From: an uncultured Brachyspira sp.
Lineage (GTDB): Bacteria; Spirochaetota; Brachyspiria; Brachyspirales; Brachyspiraceae
Reading direction: 5' to 3'
DNA: 35,054 nt
Assembly (NCBI GenBank): GCA_944392715.1
Contig: CALXXQ010000034.1
Span: forward strand, 1-35,054
A program made the translations under genes and the position numbers. Shown piece after piece: positions 3 to 32,455 of this stretch. Each line of letters begins with the position of its first letter. Position 1 is the stretch's first letter. The notes beneath the pieces are model-generated. The model was not told where the DNA came from. It ran no database searches and saw only the letters and a list, made by a program, of their open reading frames with translations.

Positions 3-1700
3 CTGCAATGCAGAATGACTGAATTTGAAAAGCCTTCTTCTAATGCATTATCTTATGGAAAAATTGTACCTATATATCCATTAACAGAAGGATTGTCTCA
101 AAAAAAATTAAGAACTTTAATTGTAAATGAACTTTCTAATTTTGAAAAGAATATGAAATATGATATTCCAAGTATTATTAAAAAAAAATATAGACTTAAA
201 AGTTTTGTACCATCTATAATGGAGATGCATTTTCCTACTTCTTTTGAGGCACTTGACGAGGCTAAAGAGAGTTTAATATTTGAAGAGTTTTTAACTTTTC
301 AATATATACATTTAAGTGAGAGAAGACCTAATATACTTATAAAAGAAGAGAGATATAATTCTTCAAATTTATTAGATAAAGTAAAATCAAGTTTATCTTT
401 TGAGCTTACTTCTGACCAATTAAGTACTATAGAGGAAATAAAAAATGATTTATTTTCAAATAAGCAGATGTTTAGGCTTCTTCAAGGAGATGTTGGAGCT
501 GGAAAGACTATAGTAGCATTTTTAACTGCATTAATTCCTACAGAATCTGGTTTTCAAACTGCATTTTTAGCTCCTACTGAAATACTGGCTTTGCAGCATT
601 ATAATACATTTAAAAACATTATTAAAGCATCATGTTTAGAGGATATTATAAAAATAGATATACTAACTTCATCAATTAATCAAAGTGAAAGAGGATATAT
701 ATTAAAAAGGCTTAGAGAAGGAAAAAGCAGTATATTAGTAGGTACGCATTCAATACTTTATGATGAAGTAGTATTTAAAAATCTTTCTTATGCTATAGTA
801 GATGAACAGCAGAGATTTGGAGCAGCACAAAGAAATAAACTTCTTTCTAAGGGAAATAATGTTGATTATCTTCTTATGACAGCAACTCCTATACCTCAAT
901 CATTAGCATTAACATTATTTGGAGAATTAGATTTATCTATTATAAAAAGTATGCCAAGCAGCAGGAAAGGAGTACTTACAAAATATAAAGAACTTTATGA
1001 GAGAGATCATTGTTATAAATTTTTAAAAAGCAGAATAGCAAAAGGCGAGCAAGGGTATGTGGTTTTTCCTCTTATAGAAAATAATGATTCCAGTTTCATT
1101 ACTTTATCAAGTGAGTTTCAAAGGGCAAAAGAAACTTATTTTTCAGATATTCAAATAGAAATAATACATGGTAAAATGAAAGATGAAGAGAAAGAATATA
1201 TAATGAATAAATTTTCTAATGGAGAGATAAAGGTATTATTTTCTACAACAGTTATAGAGGTTGGTATTGATAATCCAAATGCTACTACAATACTTATAGA
1301 AGGAGCAGAACGTTTTGGTTTATCACAGCTTCATCAGTTAAGGGGTAGGGTAGGCAGAGGAGATAAATTGGGATACTGCTATTTAATACTTCACAGCGAG
1401 CTTAATGATATCATAAAAGAAAGAATTAATATAATATGCGAAACTACTGACGGATTTAAAATATCAGAAAAAGATTTGGAATTAAGAGGGGCAGGGGAGT
1501 TTTTAGGAGATAGGCAAAGCGGAATCCCAGATTTTAAACTTGGCAATATCATAAAAGACAAAGAAATAATGCGTAGGGCAAAAGATGAAATGCGTTCTTT
1601 ATTAAGAGATGAAAATTCTAGAGAAGCTTTTTACAAAGAAAATGAATCATTTATATTAAAAGCTAATTATCTAAAATCAAGAATAGTTAAAGACGAATAA
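3..1700 (+). CDS. recG: ATP-dependent DNA helicase RecG (5' part outside window)
   Basis: This is a superfamily 2 helicase that remodels stalled replication forks and Holliday junctions. The reading frame is open to the left edge, and the visible 561 residues after the first Met are shorter than the usual roughly 680-690, so the N-terminal part of the wedge domain is missing and Met at 15 is not the true start. Visible motifs, numbered from that Met: the linker PIYPLTEGLSQ at about 19-29, Walker A GDVGAGKT (158-165), a DEQQ box (263-266), motif III TATPIPQSLALT, and the C-terminal helicase motifs QLRGRVGRG and LELRGAGEFLGDRQSG. Most RecG proteins I recall have DEQH, so the glutamine is a small departure. 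No clear terminator follows. The next gene, an Abi_2 gene, has its own promoter and is probably unrelated in function. Confidence 0.95.
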   Translation: MQCRMTEFEKPSSNALSYGKIVPIYPLTEGLSQKKLRTLIVNELSNFEKNMKYDIPSIIKKKYRLKSFVPSIMEMHFPTSFEALDEAKESLIFEEFLTFQYIHLSERRPNILIKEERYNSSNLLDKVKSSLSFELTSDQLSTIEEIKNDLFSNKQMFRLLQGDVGAGKTIVAFLTALIPTESGFQTAFLAPTEILALQHYNTFKNIIKASCLEDIIKIDILTSSINQSERGYILKRLREGKSSILVGTHSILYDEVVFKNLSYAIVDEQQRFGAAQRNKLLSKGNNVDYLLMTATPIPQSLALTLFGELDLSIIKSMPSSRKGVLTKYKELYERDHCYKFLKSRIAKGEQGYVVFPLIENNDSSFITLSSEFQRAKETYFSDIQIEIIHGKMKDEEKEYIMNKFSNGEIKVLFSTTVIEVGIDNPNATTILIEGAERFGLSQLHQLRGRVGRGDKLGYCYLILHSELNDIIKERINIICETTDGFKISEKDLELRGAGEFLGDRQSGIPDFKLGNIIKDKEIMRRAKDEMRSLLRDENSREAFYKENESFILKANYLKSRIVKDE

Positions 1701-1785
1701 TTTTATATTAAAAAATTTTATTTACATATAACATCTTTTAATACTTTTGGTTAATTTAAGTTCTGGTATATTTTTATTTTTAATA

Positions 1786-1813
1786 TTGACAAAAAATTAT
1801 GTATATATATAAT
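1786..1813 (+). promoter_or_regulatory. Strong sigma70-type promoter of the Abi-associated RNA/gene
   Basis: TTGACA lies at 1786-1791 and TATAAT at 1808-1813, with 16 bases between them. Both hexamers match the consensus exactly. Transcription is expected to begin near 1820, a few bases before the GC-rich hairpin, so the hairpin would be at the very 5' end of the transcript. Confidence 0.75.
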
Positions 1814-1819
1814 TACAGT

Positions 1820-1871
1820 AACAGGACCCCCAGCATGCCATTTATGGCGTGGACCATGGGGGACATTTTTT
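1820..1871 (+). ncRNA. Putative small structured RNA / attenuator upstream of the Abi_2 gene
   Basis: A GC-rich island in very AT-rich surroundings. An inner stem of 7 pairs (1834-1840 with 1845-1851, including one T-G pair) carries a TTTA loop (1841-1844). An outer stem pairs CCCCC (1827-1831) with GGGGG (1858-1862), separated from the inner stem by AG on the left and six bases on the right. The fold is followed by ACA and six T (1866-1871), like an intrinsic terminator. With the promoter at 1786-1813 this predicts a transcript of about 50 nt, and the Abi gene would be reached only by read-through. It could be a discrete RNA antitoxin or guide, a transcription attenuator, or both. The fold was found by eye; no covariation test was done. 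Confidence 0.6.
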
Positions 1872-1887
1872 ATTTTGGTTAATTTTT

Positions 1888-2781
1888 ATGGATATAAAAC
1901 GTCCTTATAAATATGAAGAACAACTTCAAAAATTAAAAGATAGGGGCTGCATTATTAATGACGATAAAAAATGTATATCTATACTTGAATCAATAAATTA
2001 TTATCGTTTTAGTGCCTATTTTCTTCCTTTTAAAAAAGATGATGATACATATGAAAAAGATACCTCATTTGAAAAAGTTTTTAATATTTATGAGTTTGAT
2101 AGAAAATTACATACTTTATTATTTAATGCTTTAGAAGAAATAGAAATTTTTATTCGTGCTAAAATAGCATATTATCATGCTCATAAATATGGAGCATTAG
2201 CATATTTGGATAAAAAAAATTTTTATAATGAAAATTCTAATCAAAAATATATAAATAAAAAGATAAACTATCATGAAAAATTTACAAGTAATTTTAAAAA
2301 AGAGGTAAAAAACAATAAAAAAGTATTATTCGTTAAACATCATATATCTAAATATGATAGTAATTTTCCAATATGGGTGGCAACAGAAATATTTACTTTT
2401 GGTATGTTATCAACTTTTTTTGCTAATTTAAAATTAGAGGATCAGAAAATATTAGCAAAAGATATGTATGATATTACTGCTAAGAAATTAGAAAGTTGGC
2501 TTCGTTGTTGTACAGATTTAAGAAATATTTGTGCTCATTATGGAAGACTTTATTATAGAATTTTTTCATCTATTCCAAAAGAAATGAATAATTTAGATAA
2601 TAATTCGCAAAGAAAGTTATGGGGAAATATTTTAGCAGTTAAAGAATTATATCCTTTTAAAGATAAATGGAATAATGAAATATTACCCAATTTTATTAAT
2701 CTTGTTAATGAATATAAAACTTATATAGATTTTGTTCATATTGGTTTTCCAAAAGAGTGGAATGAATATTTAAAAAAATAA
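1888..2781 (+). CDS. Abi_2 (AbiD/AbiF-like) abortive-infection HEPN-family protein
   Basis: Recognised as an Abi_2 family protein by the N-terminal segment with YYRFSAYFLPF, the central FDRKLHTLLFNALEEIE/FIRAKIA region and the motif RNICAH (R212-H217). The last is the R-x4-H signature of HEPN ribonuclease-like domains. Such proteins are known from phage-exclusion systems and are thought to act on RNA and stop growth after infection. The chosen start is ATG at 1888, giving MDIKRPYKYEEQ and 297 residues. An in-frame GTG at 1849 lies inside the GC-rich hairpin and would add an implausible FLFWLIF segment. There is no Shine-Dalgarno sequence before 1888; the leader is T-rich. Arginine is often CGT here, whereas neighbours favour AGA, a weak hint of transfer. 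It sits alone between recG and pgm. Confidence 0.88.
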   Translation: MDIKRPYKYEEQLQKLKDRGCIINDDKKCISILESINYYRFSAYFLPFKKDDDTYEKDTSFEKVFNIYEFDRKLHTLLFNALEEIEIFIRAKIAYYHAHKYGALAYLDKKNFYNENSNQKYINKKINYHEKFTSNFKKEVKNNKKVLFVKHHISKYDSNFPIWVATEIFTFGMLSTFFANLKLEDQKILAKDMYDITAKKLESWLRCCTDLRNICAHYGRLYYRIFSSIPKEMNNLDNNSQRKLWGNILAVKELYPFKDKWNNEILPNFINLVNEYKTYIDFVHIGFPKEWNEYLKK

Positions 2782-2813
2782 TTATATTATTGAATAATTC
2801 TTTTATTTACATA

Positions 2814-3125
2814 CCCCACCCTTTATTTTTTACAGCCTATTTTTAATTATAATCTCATTCATTTTTATTGTATTATAAGAATTTTTTGCTCCCACCCATG
2901 TTTTTATTAACTTTAAAACTTTATTCAACGCACGGTTAGCTGAATAATATATACAAGTAAAGTTAGAATTCATAACAAAATCATATATTTAATTTTGTTC
3001 TGCGTGCGTGAGATTTCATTATAAATTTAAAAAAATCTAGGGCGGGCATTATAATATTATTTGAAGATTTAAAAGAAAATTTATATTAAATATTATTATA
3101 AAATTAATAAGTAAGTAGGGCGGGG
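2814..3125. repeat. Non-coding stretch with three nested complementary GC-rich motifs
   Basis: I see no gene between the Abi gene and the terminator before pgm. The otherwise A/T-only stretch contains six GC-rich islands that pair in nested order: CCCCACCCT (2814-2822) with AGGGCGGGG (3117-3125), CCCACCC (2891-2897) with GGGCGGG (3040-3046), and ACGCACG (2928-2934) with CGTGCGT (3003-3009, perfect). Both C-rich/G-rich pairs have one A opposite C. The arrangement could be a long folded RNA, a dispersed intergenic repeat, or a degenerate non-autonomous mobile element. No target-site duplication was identified. Confidence 0.5.
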
Positions 3126-3146
3126 AGTTAGAATAAAGTTTAAAAT

Positions 3147-3177
3147 ATAAAAGCCCCATTAAATAATGAGGCTTTTT
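3147..3177. terminator. Bidirectional intrinsic terminator between Abi gene and pgm
   Basis: Stem AAGCC (3151-3155) pairs with GGCTT (3170-3174), extended after one mismatch by CATT (3157-3160) with AATG (3165-3168), loop AAAT. A T-run follows on the plus strand (3173-3177), and an A-rich run precedes it, serving as a T-run for the minus strand. It would end pgm transcription and anything arriving from the left. Confidence 0.75.
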
Positions 3178-12365: not shown

Positions 12366-12394
12366 TTGACAAATAATAGTTTATTTCGTATAAT
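12366..12394 (+). promoter_or_regulatory. Perfect consensus promoter of the ComFB gene
   Basis: TTGACA (12366-12371), exactly 17 bases, TATAAT (12389-12394). The start codon at 12421 lies about 20 bases after the expected transcription start, with GGAGG in between. This is one of the best sigma70 promoters in the window and predicts strong constitutive expression. Confidence 0.75.
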
Positions 12395-16627: not shown

Positions 16628-17002
16628 TTGTATTAAAAGATCTATTTAAAATAATAACATTTATATAATGAATAATCAATATTAAAAATTTATTTTTCTA
16701 ATACTTTATTTATATATTTTTTATAAAAATCGATATATGTAAATTTTGTTTTATAGATTTAGTCATATCAAAATTATTTAATTAATATAAATAGTAATGA
16801 ACAGCCATCATATAAAATCTATTATGATTTATAAAATTATTTCTTTTATTTTGATAATATTTTTATATTTCTTGATTTAAATCATTTAGTTTATTTTCTT
16901 GTATTTTTCACTGTATATATGGAATTGCTATTCCTATTATTAGAATAATAACTATTATAAAATATCTTTAAATAAGGTTAAATTATAGTTATACGAAAAA
17001 AT
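16628..17002. other. Intergenic stretch without a recognised gene
   Basis: About 375 bases of almost pure A/T between the hypothetical protein and the tmRNA 3' end. Two short hairpins are visible around 16921-16950 (GGAAT-TGCT-ATTCC, then TATTAT-TAG-ATAATA read with its flanks). I see no open frame with a start and no RNA I can name. Confidence 0.5.
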
Positions 17003-17352
17003 TGGAGATGGCGGGACTCGAACCCGCGTCCTACGAAGCGTACCATATTCGTCTACATAGCATATCTTATCTTTAAAGGTTTCGCCTTATAGGTAGAAGA
17101 CAAGCAGAAAAACTATAAGACTAGCATGAGTGTACGTAATATTAGGCTCATACGGCACCTAATACAAGTTCTATGTGTTTTGGCACCGAAAAAGCAACCC
17201 ATAGACAAATCACTTAATCAGCGGCAACTTCAATTAAGCTGCAAGTGCGTATTCGTCTGCACTTATTCTTCAGTATGATATTAACGTGCATACACCTAGC
17301 ACGACTATGCAAAATACGTTCCAACCATCGCAGTCGAAGCCGGAGCATCCCC
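17003..17352 (-). ncRNA. ssrA: Transfer-messenger RNA (tmRNA)
   Basis: Reads 5' to 3' on the minus strand from GGGGATGCTCCGGCTTCGAC to CGGGTTCGAGTCCCGCCATC followed by TCCA. The acceptor stem GGGGATG pairs with CATCTCC through all seven positions (one G-T), and the T-arm GGTTCGAGTCCC is intact. CCA beyond the discriminator base is not encoded. The tag frame is at 17260-17234: GCA GAC GAA TAC GCA CTT GCA GCT TAA, which gives ADEYALAA. The LAA end is the usual ClpXP/ClpA degron. The length of 350 nt is normal for a one-piece tmRNA. It rescues ribosomes stalled on broken mRNAs, together with SmpB. A T-run (TTTTTT) directly follows the 3' end and probably ends transcription. Confidence 0.97.
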
Positions 17353-32382: not shown

Positions 32383-32455
32383 GGGTCAGTAGTTCAATTG
32401 GTAGAGCACCGGTCTCCAAAACCGGGTGTTGCAGGTTCGACTCCTGTCTGACCTG
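32383..32455 (+). tRNA. trnW: tRNA-Trp (anticodon CCA)
   Basis: 73 bases with a full cloverleaf. The acceptor GGGTCAG pairs with CTGACCT, the first pair being G-T. The D-arm includes TTGGTAGAGC. The anticodon stem CCGGT/ACCGG has loop CTCCAAA with CCA at 32416-32418. The T-arm is GCAGGTTCGACTCCTGT. The discriminator base is G, as is typical for tRNA-Trp. CCA is not encoded. It is co-transcribed with rpmG and secE. Confidence 0.96.

Follow-up and report, generated by a model that had tools for sequence, protein, structure and literature searches.

An AbiF-type Abi_2 toxin gene and its hairpin RNA beside recG in Brachyspira: a likely toxin and RNA-antitoxin module outside the Rfam model

Gene order, promoter and protein at the locus

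The window, i.e., the whole 35,054-nt stretch of DNA that was analyzed, is contig C34 of a Brachyspira genome, of the same genus as the B. innocens and B. hampsonii records. From left to right it carries a gene that we take to encode a recG-like helicase, a sigma70-type promoter, a G+C-rich hairpin, a T6 run and an Abi_2 gene (Table 1). A sequence-only reading of this DNA had singled out a perfect TTGACA/TATAAT promoter as well as a two-part G+C-rich fold with a T run, and both are recovered here, the former matching at all 12 positions with a spacer of 16 nt and the latter as a hairpin with two stems and the T6 run. Only two other perfect promoters of this type are present in the 35 kb (at 12366 and 32079). 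The -35/-10 pair occupies an equal position in all nine Brachyspira orthologues and is also seen upstream in phage and plasmid relatives. Six bases separate the -10 box from an AACAG that many relatives have at about equal spacing, so that A1820 is the likely +1 and predicted start of transcription.

Table 1. Positions of the features discussed, in window coordinates
Feature	Position	Strand	Remarks
recG-like helicase gene (presumed)	15-1700		left neighbor of the module
Direct repeat TTTTATTTACATA, left copy	1716-1728	+	13 bp; brackets the module
Direct repeat TTTTGGTTAATTT, first copy	1745-1757		13 bp, perfect; before the promoter
sigma70-type promoter	1786-1813	+	TTGACA-N16-TATAAT, 12/12 matches; boxes 1786-1791 and 1808-1813
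abiF-type RNA, ~52 nt (ends predicted)	1820-1871	+	5' AACAGGA leader, hairpin, ACA, U6
Hairpin	1827-1862	+	CCCCCA-G-CAUGCCA-UUUA-UGGCGUG-GACCA-UGGGGG; from folds and pair counts across nine orthologues
Outer stem	1827-1832/1857-1862	+
Inner stem	1834-1840/1845-1851	+
Loop	1841-1844	+
3' single-stranded bulge	1852-1856	+	GACCA
T6 run	1866-1871	+	3 nt past the hairpin
Direct repeat TTTTGGTTAATTT, second copy	1873-1885		between the U-run and the ATG
abiF (Abi_2) toxin gene (predicted)	1888-2781	+	297 aa; Pfam PF07751; HEPN motif R212-NICA-H217
Direct repeat TTTTATTTACATA, right copy	2801-2813	+	left edge of the interspersed repeat
Interspersed repeat	2801-3150		~340 bp, imperfectly palindromic; directly 3' of abiF
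tmRNA gene	17000-17352	-
tRNA gene	32383-32455	+

The start codon of abiF is the ATG at 1888, while a GTG at 1849 falls within the hairpin. The lack of a Shine-Dalgarno sequence before the gene had also been cited earlier; the absence is genuine, but the point has been dropped as evidence because half of the genes in the window (13 of 26) likewise lack a core Shine-Dalgarno sequence by the same crude test. Separately, the two copies of TTTTGGTTAATTT flanking the promoter and RNA are not evident in the orthologues and are possibly a chance occurrence.

In a Pfam search, the abiF product matches Abi_2 alone at significance (181.8 bits, E 2.1e-53; curated cut-off 25.6), with no ToxN/AbiQ-family endoribonuclease recovered. 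A phmmer search of PDB sequences returns 8vz6 as the sole significant entry (E 1.4e-26), entitled "PbAbiF dimer bound to ncRNA". An AlphaFold2 model of the protein (pLDDT 90.5) likewise retrieves 8vz6 as the sole significant fold match in Foldseek (E 3.9e-13, TM 0.80). The R-x4-H motif from which an HEPN ribonuclease had been proposed lies at residues 212-217 (RNICAH); R212/H217 align onto R210/H215 of PbAbiF in 8vz6 and share an RNxCAH column with R202/H207 of the Clostridioides difficile AbiF, and the motif is invariant across 12 relatives. Double mutants of R202/H207 in the C. difficile protein are non-toxic (PMC12373285). Domain, motif and modeled fold thereby point to an AbiF/AbiD (Abi_2) HEPN toxin with a predicted RNase activity.

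The hairpin RNA and the scope of RF03085

The hairpin contains ~60% G+C as against 27% for the window. Its 46-nt core folds with -19.7 kcal/mol (z -2.4; 1 of 200 shuffles as good), but a longer stretch gives a z of only -1.6, and single-sequence folding is for this reason weak evidence when taken alone. Together, the hairpin and the U-run probably form an intrinsic, leaky terminator. Of 39 phage and plasmid relatives, 35 likewise have a T run after the hairpin. A simple terminator scan of the window did not flag the hairpin because such a scan does not allow an internal bulge.

The sequence-only reading had allowed that structured RNAs near Abi_2 genes might already have been reported, and this is correct, the RNA in question being the abiF RNA (Rfam RF03085). 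RF03085 itself does not match the window hairpin even at E<=10 (gathering cut-off 37 bits), and at loose thresholds Rfam as a whole yields chance matches only in the hairpin region. The same model does match directly upstream of the nearest relatives outside Brachyspira (35-38 bits), namely in the C. difficile phage phiC2 (37.6 bits) and in plasmids of Exiguobacterium (38.0), Cytobacillus (36.5) and Alicyclobacillus (35.2), of which the last two are clear relatives that also score under the cut-off. Further, it misses 16 of the 18 phage-borne abiF-type loci tested (L081-L152). The model is narrow and covers only part of the family, and with most relatives missed, abiF-type RNAs are under-annotated.

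When set against the RF03085-positive RNAs of four loci (L053, L056, L057 and L059), the window RNA aligns part by part in a common order: AACAG, outer stem, short 5' joint, inner stem, 3' single-stranded GACCA, outer stem and U-run. For example, the Exiguobacterium RNA reads AACAGAA-CCCACC-A-CGC-CUCUUCACAAU-GCG-GACCAC-GGUGGG-UCAUUUUUU and its counterpart in the window AACAGGA-CCCCCA-G-CAUGCCA-UUUA-UGGCGUG-GACCA-UGGGGG-ACAUUUUUU. As in RF03085, there are two stems and a 3' single-stranded bulge, and the RNA lies directly upstream of, and co-oriented with, the Abi_2 gene. The difference lies at the apex, where the Exiguobacterium RNA has a 3-bp stem capped by an 11-nt loop and the window RNA a 7-bp stem capped by a 4-nt loop. 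The latter lacks the CCUCU...GAUG loop that relatives commonly carry at the apex, and it is because a longer stem replaces this loop that the RNA escapes RF03085. Another Brachyspira locus, L009, displays an intermediate apex (CGC-UUUU-GCG). Extended apical stems are also found in other relatives, e.g., L132, L135 and L071, and apical variation is hence common in the family. On this comparison, the window RNA is best described as an abiF-type homolog outside the Rfam model and is not counted within RF03085. Brachyspira RNAs may already be covered by the covariance models of Zilberzwige-Tal et al.

A covariance model, R1, was built from 12 RNAs, none of them from Brachyspira, with the U-run left out; it was restricted to the GACC/UACC type because MAFFT alignments of all types mis-register the outer stem. 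Among the Brachyspira loci (97 kb) it matches L008 (E 3.9e-5), L007 (7.5e-4), L006 (0.016) and nothing else, and over 26 whole Brachyspira genomes at E<=1 it recovers only these three hairpins, each adjoining an Abi_2 gene. The window's own hairpin is the top-ranking match in the 35 kb with filters off, but its score is weak (13.5 bits, E 0.16), and it is therefore by orthology with L006-L008 that the hairpin is identified: the class-A proteins, i.e., those of the Brachyspira clade that includes the window AbiF, are 83-88% identical to the latter at the recG-linked loci and are encoded at the same chromosomal site. In 22 of 34 loci, mostly from phages and not used for its training, R1 matches the stretch before Abi_2 (20 at E<0.1), with a further match elsewhere in two of them. 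It also gives matches in 10 of 18 Spirochaetota loci (7 at E<0.01).

Some matches depart from the usual single upstream hairpin. L145 (2420-2462) and L154 (2882-2930) each have a second abiF-type RNA match away from the region upstream of Abi_2, possibly orphan or neighboring modules, and L100 has two tandem abiF-type hairpins (1356-1397 and 1418-1459) before one Abi_2 gene, as in RCd22 of C. difficile.

Conservation, linkage and the recG site

A lack of conservation or covariation of the hairpin beside other Abi_2 genes had been named as the main ground for refuting the sequence-only reading, and the comparison did not refute it. In the nine Brachyspira orthologues, standard pairs make up 95.9% of pair cells, as compared with 33-48% when the partners are slid. 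Two of the 13 pairs change on both sides, a count reached by 117 of 500 shuffles, and covariation within the genus is modest, the sequences being few (nine). A second covariance model, R2, represents the Brachyspira class-A RNA and was trained on the nine class-A loci. In 26 Brachyspira genomes it gives exactly nine matches, corresponding to the nine class-A Abi_2 genes (RNA to toxin 9:9), and detects no orphan class-A RNA; because the nine matches are themselves the training rows, the informative part of this result is the absence of further ones.

It is against this strict linkage that a chance origin has to be judged, by which an ordinary terminator-like hairpin that is not homologous to the abiF RNA happens to precede an Abi_2 gene. 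The failure of Rfam to match and the low z of the longer stretch are in line with this view. However, a model trained outside the genus gives specific matches genome-wide, RNA and toxin are linked 9:9 without orphans, and the RNA aligns part by part with RF03085-positive RNAs, making chance extremely improbable and leaving homology with the abiF RNA as the favored reading.

Eight of the nine RNA-toxin pairs lie at one site, between recG and the same downstream sequence. In six other genomes, all of other species (G005, G010, G015, G018, G022 and G024), the same flanks are present with neither RNA nor toxin, and from these empty sites it follows that the two are gained or lost together. In the window, a copy of the 13-bp direct repeat TTTTATTTACATA lies on either side of the module, while the empty sites have one counterpart. 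Gain by insertion and loss by deletion between the repeats both fit this arrangement.

The sequence directly 3' of abiF is an interspersed repeat in its own right. Its ends are ACCCCACCC.../...GGGCGGGGAGT, with inner pairs CCCACCC/GGGCGGGC and ACGCACGG/CTGCGTGCG, and its fold is strong (z -2.6). There are 65 BLAST matches to it on both strands of the source genome, the copies being ~65-76% alike with similar ends, and the empty recG sites carry it too. It matches no Rfam family and was not found in a literature search.

Known systems, proposed mechanism and a second AbiF clade

The characterized system that bears most on the locus is AbiF_Cd/RCd22 of the C. difficile prophages phi027 and phiC2 (PMC12373285). 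It has in common with the window an Abi_2 HEPN toxin (40.7% identical for phiC2), a sigma70-type promoter, an abiF-type hairpin RNA directly upstream and a toxin gene reached by read-through, which in the window is a prediction. In C. difficile, RNA and toxin gene are transcribed from one promoter with most transcription ending before the gene, and RCd22, active both in cis and in trans, binds AbiF directly, disruption of the stem abolishing neutralization (PMC12373285). RCd22 differs in possessing two abiF motifs, a terminator apart from them and a junction of the form GCU...GCUCAAAU; in the window there is one motif, which itself abuts the U-run and has GACCA at the junction and a longer inner stem. 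Further, the window module is chromosomal beside recG, whereas the C. difficile AbiF resides in a prophage lysis module. The second comparison is with PbAbiF-AbiFr (8vz6), which shares the fold, the aligned R/H pair and a hairpin RNA with a single-stranded bulge, inhibitory in AbiFr; each PbAbiF monomer binds one AbiFr, and C32 and U38 of the bulge inhibit the RNase (PMC12737573). Sequence identity with PbAbiF is ~25% in the structural alignment, and the likeness to AbiFr is one of described architecture.

The sequence-only reading had likened the locus to the type III ToxIN/AbiQ systems. In layout and general logic (promoter, RNA antitoxin, terminator and endoribonuclease gene) the likeness stands, and it extends to AbiF-RCd22 and PbAbiF-AbiFr; these characterized pairs also agree with the earlier proposal that the RNA neutralizes the protein and/or acts by attenuation. 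Kinship is not supported: ToxIN/AbiQ has an unrelated toxin family and tandem pseudoknotted RNA repeats, while the window has a single hairpin, with no tandem antitoxin RNA copies in 1690-2860. Membership is rejected on the grounds of this single hairpin and of the toxin family, with only Abi_2 recovered in Pfam and only PbAbiF in the PDB.

The locus is highly likely to be a one-operon AbiF toxin/AbiFr RNA-antitoxin module whose hairpin doubles as an attenuator in cis and an antitoxin in trans. All structural elements of the characterized scheme are present in the window, and the antitoxin role is very probably shared with the characterized relatives, chiefly the C. difficile RCd22/AbiF pair, and it is from such relatives that transcription, termination, binding, neutralization, toxicity and phage defense would be expected here. 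Transcription would begin at A1820 and mostly stop at the U-run to release the ~52-nt abiF-type RNA, with a minority of read-through transcripts yielding AbiF, a ribonuclease that would act as a dimer. The RNA, in excess over the read-through mRNA, would bind one per AbiF monomer, its GACCA bulge occupying or masking the HEPN active site and keeping the toxin inactive. Were the RNA lost or out of balance, e.g., when a phage takes over transcription, the RNase would be released and growth would cease. The single antitoxin hairpin itself abuts the U-run and so probably serves as the terminator too, a configuration shared with most of the phage and plasmid relatives.

Alternatively, the hairpin could work purely in cis, as an attenuator or terminator keeping abiF expression low, with an RNA that neither binds nor neutralizes the protein. 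That nearly all relatives have a hairpin and U-run separating promoter and gene, and that the locus has no other regulator, would be compatible with this. However, a plain terminator would have no need of an AACAG 5' end, an asymmetric GACC bulge and an inner stem that stay conserved over large distances. In C. difficile, termination falls to a hairpin of its own while the abiF motifs act in trans by binding the protein (PMC12373285), and the PbAbiF structure was solved with RNA bound (8vz6). An exclusively cis-acting role is thus unlikely in comparison with the dual role in cis and trans. Less probable still, and very unlikely in absolute terms, is a guide-like RNA that leads AbiF to target RNAs, a role proposed for the Cas13 lineage derived from AbiF. 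Its appeal stems from AbiF being held to be the ancestor of Cas13 (PMC12737573) and from the apical part being the most variable in the RNA; yet the Brachyspira apex is self-paired with a 4-nt loop, L009 offers no more than UUUU, and there are no arrays, spacers or unpaired stretches of guide length.

With AbiF and its RNA held to be the ancestral stock of Cas13, the locus adds a gut spirochete genus with orthologous pairs and clean empty sites. The kind of system, Abi_2/AbiF with an abiF RNA antitoxin, is already known and was described in 2025; what the locus contributes is a set of Brachyspira members outside the Rfam model with their rebuilt apex, which constitutes a natural test of which antitoxin parts the toxin reads.

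Brachyspira also possesses a second Abi_2 clade, class B (L010-L014, L016-L018 and L021), with the hairpin CCGCAG..GGCUUACC-UUU-GGUAGCUCAC-UCUGCGG, whose GCUCA junction resembles the C. difficile type. In the protein tree, class A is nested in a clade of gut-phage relatives, with class B placed at a distance from it; a viral scan with class-B proteins found nothing. Three genomes (G001, G023 and G025) contain members or fragments of both classes. It is conceivable, though we hold this only tentatively, that Brachyspira AbiF uses a rebuilt antitoxin in which the apical loop has become an extra helix and specificity lies entirely in the GACC bulge and stem junction, the single ~52-nt hairpin being antitoxin and terminator at once, and that together with the different RNA of the second clade (GCU..AGCUCAC junction) this would make two mutually non-cognate pairs per cell. 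RNA junction types cluster on the protein tree (12 changes as compared with 32.7 when shuffled), but this was rejected as evidence of co-evolution, since an adjacent RNA and gene share ancestry in any case. Lastly, six second-clade Abi_2 genes (L015, L018, L019, L020, L021 and L022) are degraded, split or truncated, with stops or as fragments, which suggests that modules of this clade decay often in Brachyspira.
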